Below, piece by piece: positions 2 through 29,429 of a stretch of DNA of 32,289 nt. The first letter of the stretch is position 1; the number at the start of each line of letters is the position of its first letter. The position numbers were made by a program, and so were the translations under genes. The notes under the pieces were generated by a model. It worked only from the letters and a program-made list of their open reading frames with translations, was not told the origin of the DNA and did no database searches. Origin of the DNA: Oscillospiraceae bacterium (lineage in GTDB: Bacteria > Bacillota > Clostridia > Oscillospirales > Oscillospiraceae); the NCBI GenBank assembly GCA_902784305.1, contig CACZUK010000009.1:1-32289 (forward strand), read 5' to 3'.

Positions 2-610
2 GGCGTCAAGGGCATCGGGGAAAAGGGCGCTCTGGGTTTGATTCAGAAATATGGCAGCGTGGCCGCAATCTATGAACAATTCGACGCGCTGGACCTGAAA
101 CCCGCCCAGCGCAGACGGCTGGACGAGGGCCGCGAGGATGCCAGGCGCTCCTATGAGCTGGCCACCATCCGCTGCGACGCGCCCCTCCCCTTCCAGCCGG
201 AGGAGAATCTGCGTCAGGAGCCGGAGCGGGGTCGGCTGTATCAGCTCTTCTGTCAGCTGGAGTTCAACCGGCTGATTGACCGCTTCGGCCTCACGCCGGA
301 GGAGCCTGCCCCGTCTGAGGACGCGCCTCAGGAAGTCCGGGGCAGCTGCACCGTGCAGATGCCCGCCTCGGAGGAGGAGCTGGAACCCCTGCTCTCCCTG
401 TGGCGGGAGGCTGAGGCTGTGTCCGTGCTGGCTCTGCCGGATTTGTCCGCTGTGGCGGTGGACGGTGTGGAGCGCCGCGGCGAAGCCATCGGCGTGGTCC
501 TCGCCCGGAATGTGCTGGGTGAGGAGCGCTATCAGGCGGCGCTGGAAGAGCTCTTCTCCCCCGCCGTGCGCAAGCAGGCCCACAGCAGGCCCACCGCGTC
601 AAGGAGCTGA
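2..610 (+). CDS. polA: DNA polymerase I, 5'-nuclease end and proofreading-like domain (partial, frame-broken)
   Basis: The frame is open from base 2, so the N-terminus lies outside the window. The first residues (GVKGIGEKGALGLI) are the helix-hairpin-helix of the PolA 5'-nuclease domain. An acidic linker follows, then a degenerate 3'-5' exonuclease-like domain in which I see no DxE motif; lack of proofreading is common in Firmicutes PolA. The frame is lost at an exact 11-bp tandem duplication (573-594): after ...VRKQAH it runs through nine foreign residues to TGA 608-610. Removing one repeat copy restores VRKQAHRVKELMNLLL, which continues into the next reading frame. This is therefore one ancestral polA gene now split in two. 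Product identity is certain; whether the break is biological or an assembly error is not. Confidence 0.85.
   Translation, partial: GVKGIGEKGALGLIQKYGSVAAIYEQFDALDLKPAQRRRLDEGREDARRSYELATIRCDAPLPFQPEENLRQEPERGRLYQLFCQLEFNRLIDRFGLTPEEPAPSEDAPQEVRGSCTVQMPASEEELEPLLSLWREAEAVSVLALPDLSAVAVDGVERRGEAIGVVLARNVLGEERYQAALEELFSPAVRKQAHSRPTASRS
573..594 (+). repeat. 11-bp exact tandem duplication inside polA
   Basis: The unit agcaggcccac occurs at 573-583 and again at 584-594 with no mismatch. Eleven is not a multiple of three, so the second copy shifts the polA frame. Deleting either copy rejoins the two polA frames without any other change, which identifies the duplication as the cause of the split. 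Confidence 0.95.
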
Positions 611-2100
611 TGAACCTGCTGCTGGGCGCGGGTCTGGGCACCGAGGGCTTTGTGTTCGACACGGCGCTGGCCGCCTACCTGCTCAACCCCACCGCCGGGA
701 GCTATGAGCTGCCGGAGCTGTTTCAAACCTACTGCGGCGCGCCGCTGAACAGCGCTCAGACCTGGGAGACGTTCCCGGACGAGCCGGAGCAGCGCGGACA
801 GGCCGCCGCGGACCTGCTCAGCGCCGCCGCCGCTGTGGGGGCGCTCCGGGAGAAAATGGAGCCGAAGCTGGCCGAAAACGGCCTGACGGAGCTGTTTCAG
901 ACCGTAGAGCTGCCCCTGTGCCCGGTGCTGGCCGAGATGGAGCGTGCAGGCGTTCTGGTGGACCGGGACGCGCTGGAGCGCTTCGGAGCGACGCTGACCC
1001 AGGGCATCGGAAGCGCCCAGCGGAGCGTCTACGAGCAGGCGGGGCTGGAGTTCAACATCAACTCCACCAAGCAGCTGGGCGAGGTGTTGTTCGACAAGCT
1101 CCAGCTGCCCGCCGGAAAGAAGACCAGCCGGGGCTACTCCACCAGCGCCGAGGTGCTGGACAAGCTCCGGGGCTTCCACCCGGTGGTGGACGGCGTGCTG
1201 GAGTACCGTCAGCTGACCAAGCTCAACTCCACCTATGTGCAGGGCCTGACCAAGGTCATCGCGGACGACGCGCGGATTCACACCAGCTTCCAGAACACCG
1301 TCACCGCAACGGGGCGGCTCTCCTCCACGGAGCCGAACCTGCAAAACATCCCCGTGCGGACGGAGCTGGGCGCGGAAATGCGGAAAATGTTCATCGCCGC
1401 CCCGGGCAATGTGCTGGTGGACGCGGACTACTCCCAGATTGAGCTGCGGCTGCTGGCCCATATGGCCGACGACGCGGCCATGATTGAGAGCTTCCGCTCC
1501 GGCGGGGACATCCACGCCGCCACCGCCGCCCAGGTCTACGGCGTGGCGCCGGAGCTGGTCACCAAACAGATGCGCTCCGCCGCCAAGGCCATCAACTTCG
1601 GCATCGTCTACGGCATGTCCGCCTTCTCCCTGTCTCAGGACCTCCACATCACCGTGGGAGAGGCGAAAGCCTATATGAACGCCTATTTTAAGAACTATTC
1701 CGGGGTGCAGCGCTACCTCAAGGAGGTGGTCGCCCAGGCGAAGGAGCAGGGCTATGCCGTCACCCTGCTGGGCCGCCACCGCTGGCTGCCGGAGCTGAAG
1801 TCCACCAACTTCAACATCCGCAGCTTCGGGGAGCGGGTGGCCATGAACATGCCCATTCAGGGCACCGCCGCCGACATCATCAAGCTGGCCATGATTCGGG
1901 TACAGAACCGCCTCAAGGCCGAGGGACTGGCCGGGCGGCTGGTGCTCCAGGTCCACGATGAGCTGATTGTCGAGTGTCCCGAGGCTGAGGCCGAGCAGGT
2001 CAAGGTGCTGGTGCAGCAGGAGATGGAGCAGGTCATGGAGCTTCGGGTGCCCCTGCTGGCCGAGGCCCAAATCGGCCACAGCTGGTCCGACGCTCACTAG
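610..2100 (+). CDS. polA: DNA polymerase I, polymerase (Klenow-like) part, 496 aa
   Basis: This is the 3' half of the split polA. It holds the end of the exonuclease-like domain (FDTALAAYLLNPT) and the complete family A polymerase domain: motif A DYSQIELRLLAH, motif B RSAAKAINFGIVYG (an O-helix with the Arg, Lys, Phe and Tyr positions) and motif C VHDE near the C-terminus. ATG 610 overlaps the upstream TGA as TGATG. AAGGAG lies at 601-606, only 3 nt before the ATG, which is tight but could support reinitiation. The piece could thus be made as a separate Klenow-like protein without the 5'-nuclease. In an intact homologue it would be continuous with the preceding frame. If the duplication is an artefact, the correct gene is a single polA ending at 2100. 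Confidence 0.9.
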   Translation: MNLLLGAGLGTEGFVFDTALAAYLLNPTAGSYELPELFQTYCGAPLNSAQTWETFPDEPEQRGQAAADLLSAAAAVGALREKMEPKLAENGLTELFQTVELPLCPVLAEMERAGVLVDRDALERFGATLTQGIGSAQRSVYEQAGLEFNINSTKQLGEVLFDKLQLPAGKKTSRGYSTSAEVLDKLRGFHPVVDGVLEYRQLTKLNSTYVQGLTKVIADDARIHTSFQNTVTATGRLSSTEPNLQNIPVRTELGAEMRKMFIAAPGNVLVDADYSQIELRLLAHMADDAAMIESFRSGGDIHAATAAQVYGVAPELVTKQMRSAAKAINFGIVYGMSAFSLSQDLHITVGEAKAYMNAYFKNYSGVQRYLKEVVAQAKEQGYAVTLLGRHRWLPELKSTNFNIRSFGERVAMNMPIQGTAADIIKLAMIRVQNRLKAEGLAGRLVLQVHDELIVECPEAEAEQVKVLVQQEMEQVMELRVPLLAEAQIGHSWSDAH

Positions 2101-3472: not shown

Positions 3473-4752
3473 GCAACTACAAACTCGGCACCACCTGCGT
3501 GCAGGGCGGCTACACCCCCGGCAACGGCGAGCCCCGTCAGGTCCCCATCATCCAGTCCACCACCTTTAAATACGACACCAGCGAGGACATGGGCAAGCTC
3601 TTCGACCTGGAGGCCACCGGCTACTTCTACACCCGGCTCCAGAACCCCACCAACGACTATGTGGCGGCCAAAATCGCCGAGCTGGAGGGCGGCACCGCGG
3701 CTATGCTCACCTCCTCCGGCCAGTCGGCCAACTTCTTCGCCCTGTTCAACATCTGCCAGTGCGGCGACCACATCGTCGCCAGCTCCTCCATCTACGGAGG
3801 CACCTTCAACCTCATCTCCGTGACCATGGCGAAGATGGGCATCACCACCACCTTCGTCTCCCCCGACGCCAGCGAGGAGGAGCTGAGCGCCGCGTTCCAG
3901 CCCAACACCAAGGCCATGTTCGGCGAGACCATCGCCAATCCCGCCCTGACCGTGCTGGACATCGAGAAGTTCGCCAAGGTCGCCCACGCCCACGGCGTGC
4001 CCCTGATTGTGGACAACACCTTCCCCACCCCCATCAACTGCCGTCCCTTCGAGTGGGGCGCGGACATCGTCACCCACGCCACCACCAAGTATATGGACGG
4101 CCACGGCGCGGCGGTGGGCGGCGCCATCGTGGACAGCGGCAAGTTCGACTGGGCCGCCCACGCCGACAAGTTCCCCGGCCTGTGCACCCCCGACGAGAGC
4201 TACCACGGCATCACCTATGTGGAGAAGTTCGGCCTGGCCGGCGCGTTCATCACCAAATGCACCGCTCAGCTCATGCGCGACTTCGGCGCGATTCAGTCCC
4301 CCCAGAACGCCTTTTTGCTGAATCTGGGCCTGGAATCCCTCCATGTGCGCATGCCCAAGCACGTCGAGAACGGTCAGGCCGTGGCCGAGTTCTTGAACAG
4401 CCATCCCAAGGTGGCCTATGTCAACTACTCCGGCCTGCCCGGCGACAAGTATTACGAGCTGGCCCAGAAGTACCTGCCCAAGGGCGGCTGCGGCGTGGTC
4501 AGCTTCGGCCTTAAGGGCGGCCGGGACGCCGCCTCCACCTTCATGAAGCACCTCAAGCTGGGCGCCATCGAGACCCATGTGGCCGACGCGCGCACCTGCT
4601 GCCTGAATCCCGCCACCTCCACCCACCGCCAGCTCACCGACGAGCAGCTGCGCGACGCGGGCGTCCCCGCCGAGCTCATCCGCATCAGCCTCGGCATTGA
4701 GGACAAGGAAGACCTGATTGCGGACATCGCCCAGGCTCTTGACGCGATTTAA
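3469..4752 (+). CDS. metY: O-acetylhomoserine sulfhydrylase, PLP-dependent
   Basis: Cys/Met metabolism PLP enzyme of 427 aa that makes homocysteine from O-acetylhomoserine and sulfide (cytoplasmic; may also use other thiols). Recognisable blocks are YTRLQNPT near residue 52, the SGQSANFFAL helix, IVDNTFPTP, and the Schiff-base lysine Lys207 in HATTKYMDGHG; the C-terminal domain has the family's SSHRQL-like stretch, here STHRQL. Length and order fit MetY rather than the shorter MetB/MetC (about 380-400 aa). ATG 3469 is preceded by AAGGAG (3454-3459) and overlaps the recombinase stop by 4 nt. I see no SAM or T-box riboswitch. A hairpin terminator follows at 4781. Confidence 0.93.
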   Translation: MSNYKLGTTCVQGGYTPGNGEPRQVPIIQSTTFKYDTSEDMGKLFDLEATGYFYTRLQNPTNDYVAAKIAELEGGTAAMLTSSGQSANFFALFNICQCGDHIVASSSIYGGTFNLISVTMAKMGITTTFVSPDASEEELSAAFQPNTKAMFGETIANPALTVLDIEKFAKVAHAHGVPLIVDNTFPTPINCRPFEWGADIVTHATTKYMDGHGAAVGGAIVDSGKFDWAAHADKFPGLCTPDESYHGITYVEKFGLAGAFITKCTAQLMRDFGAIQSPQNAFLLNLGLESLHVRMPKHVENGQAVAEFLNSHPKVAYVNYSGLPGDKYYELAQKYLPKGGCGVVSFGLKGGRDAASTFMKHLKLGAIETHVADARTCCLNPATSTHRQLTDEQLRDAGVPAELIRISLGIEDKEDLIADIAQALDAI

Positions 4753-6791: not shown

Positions 6792-7012
6792 TCGGAGAAT
6801 CCGGTCAAGCTGGTGTGAATGCGAACGAAAGGCTGAAAAGCCGCTGTTTCTTCGCACAGGGCGGGACGGGTCGGAGAATCCGGTCAAGCTGGTGCGAGAG
6901 TGGACGAAATGCTAAAAAGACGCTGTTTCTTCGCGCCGGGCTAAATGAGTCTGAAAATGGGCTGTTTCGCTGGTACAATGTGGATGAAAGGTTGAAAAAA
7001 TGGAACAATTTC
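6792..7012 (+). repeat. Imperfect tandem repeat, period about 79 bp, between csoR and copA
   Basis: Two close copies start at 6792 and 6871 (shared: tcggagaatccggtcaagct, then ggtg, a gacgaa/aacgaa block and gctgtttcttcgc). A third, more diverged copy starts at 6950 and runs into the copA start. A related stretch (ggtcaagctggtgc) also occurs in the last codons of csoR, so the array may have grown from that end. No protein is supported here. Similar units may be dispersed elsewhere in the genome, which cannot be tested from one window. Confidence 0.8.
6951..6979 (+). promoter_or_regulatory. Possible extended -10 promoter for copA
   Basis: CTGAAA (6951-6956), 17 nt, TGG-TACAAT (6971-6979), ending 20 nt before the copA ATG. 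It lies in the third repeat unit; the other two units do not have the -10 box. It has no CsoR palindrome, so it could give a copper-independent basal level. Confidence 0.4.
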
Positions 7013-9897
7013 TTGTCACGGGTATGAGCTGCGCCGCCTGCCAGGCCCGGGTGGAAAAGGCGGTGAATCAGGTCCCCGGCGTGGAATCCTGCTCGGTCAG
7101 CCTGCTGACCAACTCCATGGGCGTGGAGGGCAGCGCGGACCCTGCCGCCATCATCCGGGCGGTGGAGCAGGCGGGCTACGGGGCCAGCGTCAAGGGCGCG
7201 GCACAGGAGCAGAGCGCCGCCCAGCGCCGCGCCGCCGATGAGGACGCGCTGGTGGACCGGGAGACGCCGAAGCTCCGGCGCAGACTGCTGCTCTCCCTGG
7301 GCTTTCTGACGGCGCTGATGTATCTCACCATGGGCCACCACATGCTGGGCTGGCCCCTGCCTCCTCCTCTGGACGGCAACTTTTTGGCTCTGACGTTGAC
7401 GCAGCTGCTGCTCAGCGCCGCGGCCATGCTCATCAACCACAAGTTTTTCACCAGCGGCTTCTCCTCCCTGCTCCACGGCGCGCCGAACATGGACACGCTG
7501 GTGGCCCTGGGCTCGTCCGTGTCCTTCGGGTGGAGCGTGGCGGTTTTCTACCAGATGTGCGGCATTATCGCCGCCGGTGGGAACAATTCCGCGCTGATGG
7601 AGCTGTGTCACAGCCAGCTCTACTTTGAGTCCGCCGCCATGATTCCCGCCCTCATCACCGTGGGCAAAATGCTTGAAGCGCGCTCCAAGGGCCGGACCAC
7701 CGACGCGCTCAAGAGCCTGATGAAGCTCTTCCCCAAGACCGCGGTCGTCCTCAGGAACGGTGAGGAGGTCACAGTGGACATCGACGCGGTGCAGTCCGGA
7801 GACGAGTTCGTGGTGCGGCCCGGCGAGAGCATCCCCGTGGACGGCGTCGTGCTGGAGGGCAGCAGCGCCTTGAACGAGGCCGCCCTCACCGGCGAGAGCA
7901 TCCCCGTGGAGAAGGCCGAGGGCGACGCGGTCAGCGCGGCCACCCTCAACCAGAGCGGCTTTCTGCGCTGCCGGGCCACCCGCGTGGGCGAGGACACCAC
8001 CCTGAGCCAAATCATCCGCATGGTTTCCGACGCGGCGGCCACCAAGGCACCCATTGCCCGCATTGCGGACCGGGTTTCCGGCGTGTTCGTGCCCGCGGTC
8101 ATCGGCATCGCGGCGGTGGTCACTGCCCTGTGGCTGATTGGCGGGCAGAGCTTGAGCTTTGCCCTGGCCCGGGGCATCTCCGTGCTGGTCATCTCCTGCC
8201 CCTGTGCCCTGGGTCTGGCCACGCCGGTGGCCATTATGGTGGGCAACGGGCTGGGAGCCAAAAACGGGATTTTGTTCAAGACCAGCGAGGCGCTGGAGTC
8301 CGCGGGACGGGTCCAAATCGTGGCGCTGGACAAGACCGGCACCATCACCTCCGGCATGCCCCAGGTGACAGACCTGCGCCCCGCTTCGGGCTGCTCCGAG
8401 GAGCGCCTGCTCCGCGTCGCCTACGCTCTGGAGCAGCGCAGTGAGCACCCGCTGGCCCGGGCCATTGTGGACGAGGCTCACAGGCGCGGTCTGGAGGCCG
8501 AGCCGGTCACGCGGTTCCAGGCCCTCACCGGCTCCGGGCTGGTGGGCGAGCTGGACGGAAAGACCGTCCACGGCGGCAGCGACAGCTTCATCCGCACGCT
8601 GGTGCGCCTGCCCGAAGAGGTCGAGCACGCCGCCGCGGAGCTGTCCCAGGCGGGCAAGACGCCCCTGTTCTTCGAGGAGGATGGGGTGCTGCTGGGCATC
8701 ATCGCCGTGGCGGACGTGCTCAAGGAGGATTCCCCCGCCGCCATCCGCCAGCTGCGGCGCATGGGTCTGGAGGTGGTCATGCTCACCGGCGACAACGAGC
8801 GCACCGCCCAGGCCATCGGTGCCCAGGCGGGCGTGGACCAGGTGGTGGCCGGAGTGCTCCCCGACGGCAAGGAGGCCGCCATCCGCGCCCTTCAGCGCCG
8901 GGGCCGCGTGGCCATGGTGGGCGACGGCATAAACGACGCTCCCGCCCTCACCCGGGCTGACGTGGGCATCGCCATCGGCGCGGGCACCGACGTAGCCATT
9001 GACAGCGCCGACGTGGTGCTGATGAACAGCCGCCTCTCCGACGTGGCCGCCGCCGTGCGGCTCAGCCGGGCGACTCTGCGGAACATCCACGAGAACCTGT
9101 TCTGGGCCTTCTTCTACAACCTGATTTGCATCCCGCTGGCCGCGGGGGCCTTCGCGTGGAAGATGAATCCCATGGTGGGTGCGGCTGCTATGAGCCTGTC
9201 CAGCTTCACCGTGTGCATGAACGCGCTGCGGCTGAACCTGTTCCGGCTCCACGACGAGCGCCACGACCGTCCCATGGGCAAGCGCGCCGCTCCGGCGGAG
9301 GCGGTGGAGGCTGAGAGCAGCAATCCGGCGAAATCCGCACCCGCCTGCCCGGTGGAGCCTGAGAGCAGCGGTTCGGCGGAATCCGCGCGTGCCTGCCCGG
9401 TGGAGCCGGTCTGTTGTGCAGCGGAGGCCGCGCCCGGCTGCGCCTGTGACGTGACCGAGCCGTCTGAGGAGCAAATCACCCTGCACATCGGCGGCATGAT
9501 GTGCCCCCACTGCGAGAACCGCGTCAAAACGGCGCTGGAGGCCGTCCCCGGCGTGGTGCTGGCCCGGCCCAGCCACGAGGCGGGCACCGCCGTGCTCACC
9601 CTGTCACAGTCCGTCCCGGAGGAGGCCCTGCGCGCCGCCGTTGAGGGTCAGGATTATGAATATATTTCCCTGGAAAGGAGCAAAACCATGAAGAAAAGCG
9701 TCAAAATCGAGGACATGATGTGCCCCCACTGCGAGGCCAACGTCAAGAAGGCTCTGGAGGCCCTGGAGGGCGTGACCAGCGCCGAGGTCAGCCACAAGGA
9801 GGGCACCGCCGTGCTCACCCTGAGCCAGGACGTGCCCTACGCCGTGATTCAGAAGGCCGTGGAGGACAAGGGCTACACCTTCGTGGGCGTGCTGTAA
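7000..9897 (+). CDS. copA: Cu(I)-exporting P1B-ATPase CopA fused to two C-terminal HMA domains
   Basis: P-type copper exporter of 965 aa, inner membrane. Order: N-terminal heavy-metal-associated (HMA) domain with GMSCAAC at 8-14; paired N-terminal membrane helices; actuator with LTGES; transport-site CPC at 400-402; phosphorylation site DKTGT at 444-448; SEHPLA; GDGINDAP near 641; last helix pair near 705-740. Typical CopA would end there. Here a Cys-rich linker with a 16-residue repeat follows, then two more HMA domains with CPHC at 835-838 and 908-911. The last HMA begins at Met897, preceded by its own SD, and looks like a former separate copZ. No good SD precedes ATG 7000 (ttgaaaaaATGG), but MEQFLVTGMSC fits the family start. 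A hairpin terminator follows. Confidence 0.93.
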   Translation: MEQFLVTGMSCAACQARVEKAVNQVPGVESCSVSLLTNSMGVEGSADPAAIIRAVEQAGYGASVKGAAQEQSAAQRRAADEDALVDRETPKLRRRLLLSLGFLTALMYLTMGHHMLGWPLPPPLDGNFLALTLTQLLLSAAAMLINHKFFTSGFSSLLHGAPNMDTLVALGSSVSFGWSVAVFYQMCGIIAAGGNNSALMELCHSQLYFESAAMIPALITVGKMLEARSKGRTTDALKSLMKLFPKTAVVLRNGEEVTVDIDAVQSGDEFVVRPGESIPVDGVVLEGSSALNEAALTGESIPVEKAEGDAVSAATLNQSGFLRCRATRVGEDTTLSQIIRMVSDAAATKAPIARIADRVSGVFVPAVIGIAAVVTALWLIGGQSLSFALARGISVLVISCPCALGLATPVAIMVGNGLGAKNGILFKTSEALESAGRVQIVALDKTGTITSGMPQVTDLRPASGCSEERLLRVAYALEQRSEHPLARAIVDEAHRRGLEAEPVTRFQALTGSGLVGELDGKTVHGGSDSFIRTLVRLPEEVEHAAAELSQAGKTPLFFEEDGVLLGIIAVADVLKEDSPAAIRQLRRMGLEVVMLTGDNERTAQAIGAQAGVDQVVAGVLPDGKEAAIRALQRRGRVAMVGDGINDAPALTRADVGIAIGAGTDVAIDSADVVLMNSRLSDVAAAVRLSRATLRNIHENLFWAFFYNLICIPLAAGAFAWKMNPMVGAAAMSLSSFTVCMNALRLNLFRLHDERHDRPMGKRAAPAEAVEAESSNPAKSAPACPVEPESSGSAESARACPVEPVCCAAEAAPGCACDVTEPSEEQITLHIGGMMCPHCENRVKTALEAVPGVVLARPSHEAGTAVLTLSQSVPEEALRAAVEGQDYEYISLERSKTMKKSVKIEDMMCPHCEANVKKALEALEGVTSAEVSHKEGTAVLTLSQDVPYAVIQKAVEDKGYTFVGVL
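9304..9399 (+). repeat. 48-bp tandem repeat coding the Cys-containing CopA linker
   Basis: 9304-9351 and 9352-9399 encode VEAESSNPAKSAPACP and VEPESSGSAESARACP; a third partial unit starts VEP at 9400 and leads into CCAAEAAPGCAC. The 16-codon period keeps the frame. Each unit ends in ACP, so the linker gains a cysteine per copy. Confidence 0.85.
9688..9897 (+). CDS. CopZ-like copper chaperone, nested in frame at the 3' end of copA
   Basis: ATG 9688 is preceded by AAAGGAG (9674-9680) with 7-nt spacing, an ideal ribosome site inside the copA reading frame. From it a 69-aa protein, MKKSVKIEDMMCPHC..., would be made: exactly one HMA domain with the CPHC Cu(I) site and the size of a CopZ chaperone. 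The same residues are also the last domain of the CopA fusion. Either copZ was a separate gene whose upstream stop codon was lost, or both fused and free forms are produced. The free product is inferred from the start signal only. Confidence 0.55.
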   Translation: MKKSVKIEDMMCPHCEANVKKALEALEGVTSAEVSHKEGTAVLTLSQDVPYAVIQKAVEDKGYTFVGVL

Positions 9898-17803: not shown

Positions 17804-19027
17804 TTACTGCCCGTTTTCACCGTCCTGATGCGTCTCAGGGCGGTCCTCAGGCTCAGAGGGCGCGTCCGCCGCTTCGGGTGCCGCGGGAGCGCTCTCGTAC
17901 GGCTGCGCGGGGGCTTCGGGGGCCTCTGGCTGCGCGGGAACCGCGCTCTGGGCCGTGTCGGCGGACTTCCGGCCGGTAAAGGGCGGCGCGAAGGGCGTCT
18001 TCGGCACGGATTTCTTCCCCTTCATCGGCAGCCAGCCGGTCCTTTTGGGCGCGTTGGGGTCGATGCCCTGCTCCCGGAGCCGCTGGGCGCGCTTCTCCCT
18101 CCGGCGGCGGAACACGCGGCGGAGCACCACGATGATGATAGCCAGCACAGCCAGGCTGAACACGTTGCCCACCAGCCAAACCAGCAGCTCCTGCACGCCC
18201 TCGATGAAGTCTTCCAGACCGCCCAGGAAAGAGTTCACCAGGCGCTGGCCGAAGGAAATCGTGTTGGTGTCGCTGATGGTCACCACCTGCTCGATGGTGA
18301 CGCGGAAGGTGGCGTAGCCGATGAGGCTGTCGTAGCGGTTCAGTGTGGAGGTATAGCGCTCGATTTCGTACTCCGTGTCGGTGATGGCCTGCTCCAGGGT
18401 GATGATGTCGTCCATGTGCTTGGCCTGAGAGAGCAGGTCCTGAAGCCGCTCCAGCTTGGTGCGCAGGGTCTTGAGCCGGGTCTCGGTGTCGAAGTAGGCC
18501 TGCCCCACGTCCTCGGTGGACTCGTCCTTGCTGGTCAGGTGGCAGTGCTCCTCGCTGCTCATGCGGCTGAGGAAGTCCCCGTACTTCGCCGCGGGCACCC
18601 GAACGGTGTAGCTGGCGCTGCGGTAGGTGCTGCCGTAGCCGCCCTGGTTCAGGTTGCTCTCCTCCACATAGCCGCCCAACTCGTTGACCAGACCTTCGAG
18701 GCCCTGAACGGCCGCGTCAAACTCCTTCGTCTCAAGGTTCAGACTGGCCCGGCGAATCAGCTTCACCTTCGCGTTCTGATAGGCGCTCTGGGTGTCGCCG
18801 GAGCCGCTGTCGTTGGTGTCCGCGGTGTCAGCGTCATAGGCCTCCTCGGCCTCGGCGGGGTCCTCGTAGCGGTAGGCGTCCTCCGCGGCGGCGGCCGGAG
18901 CGGCCTCTGTGGCGGCGTAGTTGCGCTCTGCCGCCTTCGTGGCTCCGGAGCTGCCTGACGCACCGCATGCGGTCAGGCTCAGCAGCAGCGAGAGGGCCAT
19001 CGTCCACGCAATCATTCTCTTTTTCAT
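17804..19027 (-). CDS. DUF4349 lipoprotein with a membrane helix and proline-rich tail
   Basis: 407 aa. Signal peptide MKKRMIAWTMALSLLLSLTAC with the lipobox LTAC and acylated Cys21. A low-complexity acidic/Ala stretch (about 30-85) leads to the DUF4349 domain (about 88-285) with coiled-coil heptads (ETRLKTLRTKLERLQDLLSQAKHMDDIITLEQAITDTEYEIERY). A membrane helix follows (about 300-320, VFSLAVLAIIIVVL), then a basic stop-transfer (RRVFRRRREKRAQR) and a cytoplasmic Pro/Ala/Glu-rich tail of 70-80 residues. Family function is unknown. ATG 19027 has AAAGGAG 9 nt upstream; ATG 19033 would be too close to it. It lies downstream of the GGDEF-EAL gene on the same strand. Confidence 0.8.
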   Translation of the reverse strand: MKKRMIAWTMALSLLLSLTACGASGSSGATKAAERNYAATEAAPAAAAEDAYRYEDPAEAEEAYDADTADTNDSGSGDTQSAYQNAKVKLIRRASLNLETKEFDAAVQGLEGLVNELGGYVEESNLNQGGYGSTYRSASYTVRVPAAKYGDFLSRMSSEEHCHLTSKDESTEDVGQAYFDTETRLKTLRTKLERLQDLLSQAKHMDDIITLEQAITDTEYEIERYTSTLNRYDSLIGYATFRVTIEQVVTISDTNTISFGQRLVNSFLGGLEDFIEGVQELLVWLVGNVFSLAVLAIIIVVLRRVFRRRREKRAQRLREQGIDPNAPKRTGWLPMKGKKSVPKTPFAPPFTGRKSADTAQSAVPAQPEAPEAPAQPYESAPAAPEAADAPSEPEDRPETHQDGENGQ

Positions 19028-27878: not shown

Positions 27879-27994
27879 ACAGGAGCGTCATCACCGCCAA
27901 CGGCGCTACAGGAGCGTCGCCACCGCCAACAGCGCTACAGGAGCGTCACCACCGCCAACAGCGCTACAGGAGCGTCACCACCGCCAGCAGCGCC
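27879..27994 (-). repeat. Four tandem copies of a 29-bp unit at the 3' end of spoIIIAB
   Basis: Units start at 27879, 27908, 27937 and 27966, exactly 29 bp apart, with 1-3 differences from each other. The unit at 27966-27994 is the end of the spoIIIAB coding sequence; the first base of the stop (TAG) falls in the unit and the other two in the adjoining one. The other three copies lie between spoIIIAB and spoIIIAC. The array therefore looks like repeated duplication of the gene's last codons. Confidence 0.93.
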
Positions 27995-28470
27995 GCCGAC
28001 ACACTCAGGGTGTACCACAGCCGCCGACGCTCCCTCAGCGCCGCCTCCCGGGCTTCGGCCCGCTCCCTCAGTTCCCGGCCCACAGAGGCGAGGCACTGGC
28101 ACTGTTCCTCCACGGAGCAGCGGCCCAGCACCCGGCCCGGGCGCTCCAGGAGCCGACGTTCCGCTTGATTCAGATGTAAAGCGGTATCACTTGCCATATT
28201 GTCCCACTGCGTGGAAAAGTCCGCTGTTTCCAGGTTATTTAGGGCAATTCTGCCAAATATACGGGCTAGTTCTTCCCCACCAGCGCGCTGTGCCTCCCGG
28301 AGCAGCACGTCCATGGCGCTGGAGCGCTCCCGCAGCTCCCGCTCCATGGCGCTCAGCGCTTCGCTAAGGCCGCGGAGCTGACGGATGCATTTTCGCTCCC
28401 GCCTCACCTGCTCCTGGCAGGTCCAGACGGCCCCCAGCAGCACCCCCAGCGCGCCCATGGCCCTAATCAT
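27964..28470 (-). CDS. spoIIIAB: Stage III sporulation protein AB
   Basis: 168 aa from ATG 28470. N-terminal helix (MIRAMGALGVLLGAVW), a long helical domain with the SpoIIIAB pattern (LRGLSEALSAMERELRERS... then GRCSVEEQCQCL), and a C-terminal helix ending AALLAVVTLL. ATG 28470 gives the typical family N-terminus and an 8-nt overlap with the spoIIIAA stop; ATG 28488 (6 residues longer) and ATG 28458 are alternatives, none with a clear SD. The last 29 bp are tandemly duplicated downstream. Confidence 0.87.
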   Translation of the reverse strand: MIRAMGALGVLLGAVWTCQEQVRRERKCIRQLRGLSEALSAMERELRERSSAMDVLLREAQRAGGEELARIFGRIALNNLETADFSTQWDNMASDTALHLNQAERRLLERPGRVLGRCSVEEQCQCLASVGRELRERAEAREAALRERRRLWYTLSVSAALLAVVTLL

Positions 28471-29353
28471 CCAGCCGGACCAGCTCATAGCTTCGCCGCC
28501 CGCCCGCCCGGTGGATGAGCACCGCGTGGGAGAAGATGTGCTCCGCCAACAGGCGGCGGTAGAGGGGGCGCTGACGCAGCTCCGCCACGCTGGCGGCGTG
28601 GGCCGTGGCCAGCACCGGCACCGCGCAGTTCGCCGCGCGGGAGAGGGCGTCCAAATCCTCCGGGGCGGTGATTTCGTCCGCGGCCAGCAGTTGGGGACTC
28701 ATGCTGCGCAGGAGCAGCAGCAGGCCCTCCGCCTTGGAGCAGCCGTCCAGCACGTCGGTGTGCTCGCCCACGTCGAACTGGGGGACCCCCTTCCAGAGGC
28801 CCGCCACCTCCCCCCGTTCGTCCGCGAGACACGGACGCAGGCCGTACTCGTCCGAGGCCAGACGCAGCAGCTCCCGCAGCAGCGTGGTCTTCCCGCCGCC
28901 GGGCGGTGAGAGCAGCAGCGCCGAACGAATTTCACCGCCGAAAAGCGGTTCTGCCAGCGCTCCGGCGATATTCCGCACAGGATGGGCCACCCGGAGACAC
29001 AGGGAGGACAATTGCCGAAGGCCGTGGATGCGCCCCTCCCGCACGTCCACAGAGCCAACGACGCCGATACGATGTCCGCCCGGTACGGTCAGGAAGCCGG
29101 AACGCAGCTGCTCCCGCACCGCGTGGAGGCTGGCCCGGGTGGCAAGCTCCAGCGTCAGATGCAGCTCCTCCTCCGTCACCAGCACCCGCGCGCCCCGGCG
29201 GAGCACAGGCCGCTCCCGGCCGTCCGCTCCAGCCGCCGTCAGAGGCCGGAGCGCCCGCAGGTGCAGCTCCTCCGCGTCGATGAGACTCTCCTGCACTGCC
29301 TCCCGCAGCCGCAGCGGAAGGTTCAGCACGGCCTGTTCCAACGCCTTGTTCAC
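28463..29353 (-). CDS. spoIIIAA: Stage III sporulation protein AA (ATPase)
   Basis: 296 aa secretion-type ATPase of the spoIIIA channel. The N-terminal domain carries VPGGHRIGVVG; Walker A is SPPGGGKTT near residues 146-154 and Walker B LLAADEI near 225, followed by the family's ATAHA. GTG 29353 is chosen because it gives the usual N-terminus and an AAAGGGG run lies 10 nt upstream; the longest frame starts at TTG 29413 with a Pro/Gly-rich leader that is unlike the family. A spoIIR terminator lies upstream, so the operon needs its own promoter. A CATAGATT at 29419-29412 slightly resembles a sigma-E -10, but no -35 fits. Confidence 0.9.
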   Translation of the reverse strand: MNKALEQAVLNLPLRLREAVQESLIDAEELHLRALRPLTAAGADGRERPVLRRGARVLVTEEELHLTLELATRASLHAVREQLRSGFLTVPGGHRIGVVGSVDVREGRIHGLRQLSSLCLRVAHPVRNIAGALAEPLFGGEIRSALLLSPPGGGKTTLLRELLRLASDEYGLRPCLADERGEVAGLWKGVPQFDVGEHTDVLDGCSKAEGLLLLLRSMSPQLLAADEITAPEDLDALSRAANCAVPVLATAHAASVAELRQRPLYRRLLAEHIFSHAVLIHRAGGRRSYELVRLDD

Positions 29354-29429
29354 GCCTGTTTGTCCCCTTTCCCGTCCTGGATTGCCCGGACCCGGATTGC
29401 TTGTCTGGGACAATCTATGGCGATGGGCA

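Follow-up and report, generated by a model that had tools for sequence, protein, structure and literature searches.

The polA gene of an Oscillospiraceae draft genome is broken by an exact 11-bp tandem duplication that lies 3' of the region for the 5'-nuclease. The explanation that we favor, and that we regard as probable though far from secure, is a private and recent truncation allele in which the 5'-nuclease half is kept. The duplication, having arisen in an ordinary polA, would shift the frame after about residue 391, and the product would be a truncated Pol I made of the complete 5'-nuclease and an unfinished exonuclease-like piece, without the polymerase; the carrier cell could be viable, since several bacteria require PolA for its 5'-nuclease and tolerate disruption elsewhere in the protein. 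We infer that the sampled cells really carry the two-copy molecule, that they do not make useful amounts of the polymerase half, and that the duplication allele is recent. Should the allele be real, it would be a natural counterpart of the laboratory mutants in which polA has lost its polymerase and kept the essential 5'-nuclease; otherwise, the case calls for caution over core-gene frame breaks in draft genomes, even those that come with a neat stop-start overlap. The weights given below to the competing readings are matters of judgement.

An 11-bp tandem duplication in polA

The sequence analyzed here (hereafter the window) is a stretch of 32,289 nucleotides, contig C9 of a draft genome of 168 contigs and 2.4 Mb (completeness 96.82%, contamination 0.06%). 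A repeat search found the unit AGCAGGCCCAC exactly two times in the window, as identical direct tandem copies at 573-583 and 584-594 of the forward strand, and the frame changes across the pair. The frame that is open from base 2 runs through both copies and, after 8 off-frame residues, stops at the TGA of 608-610. The second frame is open over 523-2097 (stop codon 2098-2100), its first ATG, GTG or TTG being the ATG of 610-612, and the two frames overlap over 523-610. The upstream stop and the downstream ATG share bases in TGATG (608-612, forward strand), and AAGGAG, a Shine-Dalgarno (SD) look-alike, lies on the same strand at 601-606, three bases 5' of the ATG. The first-pass annotation of this locus had reported an exact 11-bp repeat that breaks the frame, which was borne out to the base at 573-594, and a stop-start overlap with AAGGAG 3 nt upstream, which is present as described.

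The same annotation had held that the frame is continuous once one copy is removed, and continuity of the two halves with an intact PolA was confirmed when the pieces were matched apart, by tblastn with the intact PolA of the relative G030 (locus L036, a frame of 896 aa). Query residues 195-391 matched window 2-583 with 65% identity, and residues 391-896 matched window 592-2097 with 83% identity. The two matches meet at residue 391 of 896, a single histidine in whose codon each repeat copy ends, and the joint lacks no residue of this intact protein.

The 5' part of polA (2-610, forward strand) holds the end of the 5'-nuclease, a linker and the beginning of the 3'-5' exonuclease-like domain; PF01367 matches its residues 1-75, as translated from window 2-583. 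The 3' part (592-2097, forward strand) completes the exonuclease-like domain and contains the family A polymerase domain in full. PF00476 matches residues 126-499 of its 502 aa with 535 bits, over profile positions 2-380 of 381, and four motif strings that we take to be those of family A polymerases are present. The N-terminal 5'-nuclease domain, PF02739, is matched at 18382-18888 of another contig of the same draft genome, C64. The gene therefore has the 5'-nuclease (PF02739, PF01367) and family A polymerase (PF00476) domains of a bacterial PolA, not in one open frame but with a frame shift at 573-594. Profile searches of the draft genome gave one match to PF02739 and one to PF00476, and these searches revealed no spare polA and no stand-alone 5'-nuclease.

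The 3' neighbors, of which ten proteins were scanned, include an O-acetylhomoserine sulfhydrylase, other ordinary genes and an Xer-like tyrosine recombinase, for which the best models stay below their curated cut-offs. The window also encodes a copper-type P-type ATPase (7000-9897); metallochaperone-like (CopZ) matches occur both at the N-terminus of this protein and near its C-terminus.

Position of the joint and possible translation of the second frame

In one rival reading, -1 ribosomal frameshifting between the two frames, which do overlap, would join them into a full-length Pol I. The overlap at 523-610 contains no X-XXY-YYZ slippery heptamer in phase, and its only homopolymer of at least five bases is CCCCC at 558-562. 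Programmed -1 frameshifting was rejected for want of such a heptamer, and we give it next to no weight.

Separate synthesis was the proposal of the first-pass annotation: translation would stop at TGA 608-610 and restart at ATG 610, giving the cell a working split enzyme composed of a separate 5'-nuclease and a 496-aa polymerase. This reading would matter more if true, and little that we found singles it out; we consider it unlikely. The wholeness of the polymerase domain, its preserved motif strings and the lack of excess changes in it (see below) are in its favor, and so is the TGATG overlap with AAGGAG just 5'. How often such a context arises by chance was estimated from relatives: of 109 loci entered, 96 gave a frame and 13 gave none, a single strand being read, and after a 15-aa fragment (L024) was dropped, the remaining 95 were reduced to 87 distinct loci by merging 8 identical pairs. 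In these 87 relatives, the first stop of the shifted frame would fall in TGATG at 3.5% of codon positions, and in TGATG with an SD-like 5-mer within 16 nt at 0.9%. The latter coincidence is mild evidence for a split enzyme, weighed after the fact, and the rarity of a restart-like context, only 0.9% per position, counts against the truncation that we prefer.

The origin of the signals points the other way. In the downstream frame AAGGAGCTGATG reads Lys-Glu-Leu-Met: AAGGAG, which encodes the Lys-Glu, and TGATG are together the ordinary codons AAG GAG CTG ATG. At the joint position, AAGGAG is found in 19 of the 87 relatives, TGATG in 10 and both in 3, namely in the intact polA genes of L036 and L005, the two nearest relatives, and of L021. 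The signals thus most likely predate the 11-bp duplication, and what had been taken for restart signals is equally a property of unbroken genes; a translation start of the polymerase's own, over and above this coding sequence, was not found. In addition, the gap of 3 nt between the SD look-alike and the ATG is short.

The position of the joint within the protein is a further argument against a split enzyme. When the 3' part is compared with Klenow-type chains, the alignment starts near position 97 of the chain: residue 1 of the part corresponds to position 97 of 6vdc and to position 400 of the full-length 6vde, and residue 8 to position 103 of E. coli Klenow chains. The profile of the exonuclease-like domain, PF22619, gives a weak match, below its cut-off, that starts at position 58 of its 140 and at residue 5 of the downstream piece. 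Judging from these alignments, the joint interrupts the exonuclease-like domain some 97 residues past the start of the Klenow-equivalent part, rather than marking the transition from the 5'-nuclease to the exonuclease-like and polymerase region. The earlier description of a nuclease part and a polymerase part therefore has to be amended, the joint lying off any domain border. The upstream product would retain the 5'-nuclease. A product started at ATG 610 would, like the Klenow or large fragment, hold the whole family A polymerase domain. It could not be called a Klenow fragment, since it would begin mid-domain, with the opening portion of the exonuclease-like domain (about the first 97 to 103 residues of the fragment) missing.

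polA in the genus and the family

A match to polA was obtained in 30 of 32 genomes of the genus. In the comparison with close relatives suggested in the first-pass annotation, 26 of the 29 other genomes with a match have the whole gene in one frame of at least 886 aa, and in the three others a contig end truncates it. G025, one of the three, has one frame across the joint and reaches its contig end later, and G008 and G012 stop short of the joint. Among 80 named loci the frame is at least 886 aa long in 78, the exceptions being L063 (827 aa) and L081 (698 aa), which begin at a contig edge.

With the intact PolA protein as query, 300 genomes of the family (completeness of at least 90%, sampled from a larger group) were then compared. 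A match was present in 294, and the six without one are outside the counts. polA is in one frame in 278 of the 294, and in two frames on one contig in two, the window genome and G122; in the remaining 14 it is cut or spread over contigs. Within the 278, the match starts late in three genomes, at query residue 29 in G249, 40 in G197 and 82 in G317, and six genomes with one stop in the alignment and a frame of 852-878 aa (G098, G126, G140, G173, G269 and G312) were counted as having one frame. The 14 set aside are G025, G042, G047, G069, G077, G138, G139, G154, G210, G260, G278, G288, G290 and G300, of which four were compared with contig ends (G210, G278 and G290 by their sequence, G025 by the length of its contig) and the other ten may hide further breaks. 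In G042 and G288, polA is matched on two contigs, and the query ranges share about 108 and 286 residues, respectively, which may reflect strain mixtures. The frames of G122 meet at residues 246/247 of the intact protein, another place than the joint in the window; this break is in locus L138 (G122:C43:1-8000), with its joint at about 4468-4477 of the contig.

Few genomes of the family have a broken polA frame, and their breaks are scattered, a pattern that private mutations or errors would give; frequent breakage is ruled out by the count of 2 in 294. These numbers also weigh against a working split enzyme: the 278 one-frame genomes are unsplit at the joint and the G122 break lies elsewhere, the 14 cut or spread genomes being outside this count.

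They bear as well on the reversible on/off state that had been raised for this locus, in which the exact repeat would contract and expand and so toggle the polymerase of Pol I. Exact tandem repeats can contract, and the polymerase half still looks functional, as a switch would have it. Phase-variable repeat tracts in coding genes are built of tandem units that are not a multiple of three, and the window polA resembles them in its non-triplet unit; unlike them it has two copies only, and no variation in repeat number was seen among its species-level relatives, nor any copy-number series among those aligned. None of the other 29 genus genomes shows the split state (G008 and G012 stopping short of the joint), and the only other two-frame case among the 294 family genomes is the unrelated break of G122 at residues 246/247. 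A switch therefore seems very improbable. We are equally skeptical of a self-resetting mutator switch, in which the duplication would remove the polymerase and keep the essential 5'-nuclease. Tetranucleotide repeats in Haemophilus are reportedly destabilised when the Klenow part is lost, so the duplication might hasten its own contraction, and a subpopulation would be transiently polymerase-less and mutable. In a weaker form of this reading, a single transcript would yield both halves through restart at TGATG.

Selection on the two halves

Relative to L036, dN/dS is 0.27 for the upstream piece and 0.22 for the downstream piece; three further relatives gave 0.32-0.50 and 0.19-0.38, respectively, and for the whole gene in three pairs of intact relatives it is 0.17-0.34. 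In the downstream piece, with L005 as the outgroup, 26 changes fall on the window lineage since its split from L036 and 22 on that of L036 (p 0.67); other settings gave 14 versus 8, 10 versus 6 and 18 versus 29, with a lowest p of 0.144. None of the four relative-rate settings thus shows an excess of changes in the window lineage for this piece, and, with a dN/dS of 0.22, decay of the polymerase half is ruled out as a visible effect. It follows that the break is recent, as we propose, or is absent from most cells, or that the half is still used; the lack of decay would be equally expected of a gene that is intact in most cells and of continued synthesis of the polymerase half.

The upstream piece gave a less uniform picture. 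In some outgroup settings there are more window-only than L036-only changes (12 versus 2, p 0.013; 8 versus 1, p 0.039), which counts against the truncation reading. No excess was found elsewhere, with 24 versus 15 changes (p 0.2) and, against the sister L005, 14 versus 12 (p 0.85).

Assembly context

The contig starts inside polA, and the start of the gene is on contig C64. Bases 1-99 of the window are identical to the last 99 of C64, where polA continues, and this shared overlap ends 474 nt 5' of the 11-bp repeat. A fixed exact overlap between contig ends is a typical trace of de Bruijn assembly at a branch.

The two-copy form may be an assembly error or a minority-strain variant picked by the assembler, with most cells carrying an intact polA. 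We take this to be a real possibility and the chief rival of the truncation allele, albeit the less likely of the two. The genome is a draft of 168 contigs, the assembly stops 474 nt from the repeat, the polymerase half is free of decay, and a second family genome, G122, has an unrelated break in polA. Many frameshift pseudogenes in public genomes are moreover assembly errors, according to Cooley and Wright (2024, PMC11017572), who found that on average 21.6% of frameshift pseudogenes differ between nearly identical genomes. The window polA resembles such artefactual pseudogenes in being an isolated break in a conserved gene that is whole in relatives; it differs in that the break is an exact 11-base duplication. 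Such a duplication is unusual as a short-read error, and the array of 22 bases is much shorter than the 99-base overlap, so that some molecules probably carry it.

A probable truncation 3' of the 5'-nuclease

The truncation allele that we favor has counterparts among laboratory mutants. In C. difficile, transposon mutagenesis yielded insertions in the exonuclease and polymerase domains of polA and none in the 5'-nuclease domain; the same study reports restricted essentiality of polA in Streptococcus and Haemophilus too, and dispensability of all of polA in B. subtilis (PMC12548448). In H. pylori, the 5'-nuclease is essential and the rest of PolA replaceable, five sequenced disruptants all retain the first kilobase of polA, and strains without the polymerase part are highly sensitive to DNA damage (PMC3121766). 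Since the 5'-nuclease is the essential half in C. difficile and H. pylori, a break past the nuclease domain would be tolerable, and restart would not be needed. The window polA resembles the C. difficile Tn-seq and H. pylori mutants in that the break lies 3' of the 5'-nuclease and the polymerase part would be lost, and here too the nuclease part could suffice for life. It differs from them as a natural 11-bp duplication in a draft genome, with no transposon or cassette.

Tandem repeats in the genome and origin of the duplication

To place the duplication among other repeats of the genome, a sample of 431,338 bases was analyzed, comprising 19 stretches of 20 kb, contig C64 and the window. It yielded a list of 42 exact tandem repeats with units of 8-60, of which 27 have a unit that is a multiple of three; in 11 of the 42 the unit is at least 11, two of these 11 entries overlapping at one place. 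Three first-order Markov resamplings gave 36 repeats in total (unit 8-40), and none with a unit of 11-40, so the polA repeat is not explained by base-order chance. Tandem duplication marks this genome, and is mostly of frame-keeping kinds.

The polA array has exactly 2.0 copies and no matching bases at either edge, features that led us to consider end joining and transposon excision as its origin. The draft genome gave no match to Ku (PF02735), and none to DDE_Tnp_1 (PF01609), the one transposase family searched.

Other non-triplet repeats with a unit of at least 10 occur at L119, L123, L125 and L129 and at window 27920. A Pfam scan of eight frames, drawn from the first four of these places, gave a single match, to a response regulator at L129. 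With respect to these eight frames at four other places, the polA repeat is the only non-triplet one of this size shown to split a recognised gene, which argues, weakly, against an assembly artefact. The repeat at L129 (2133-2163) is likewise an exact 11-bp tandem repeat, of 2.8 copies, and lies at the upstream edge of the minus-strand response-regulator frame. The one at window 27920-27986 is an exact 29-bp tandem repeat of 2.3 copies; it overlaps the end of a minus-strand open reading frame (27964-28488) and is near a spoIIIAA-like gene at 28466-29413, whose match is below the cut-off of the model.
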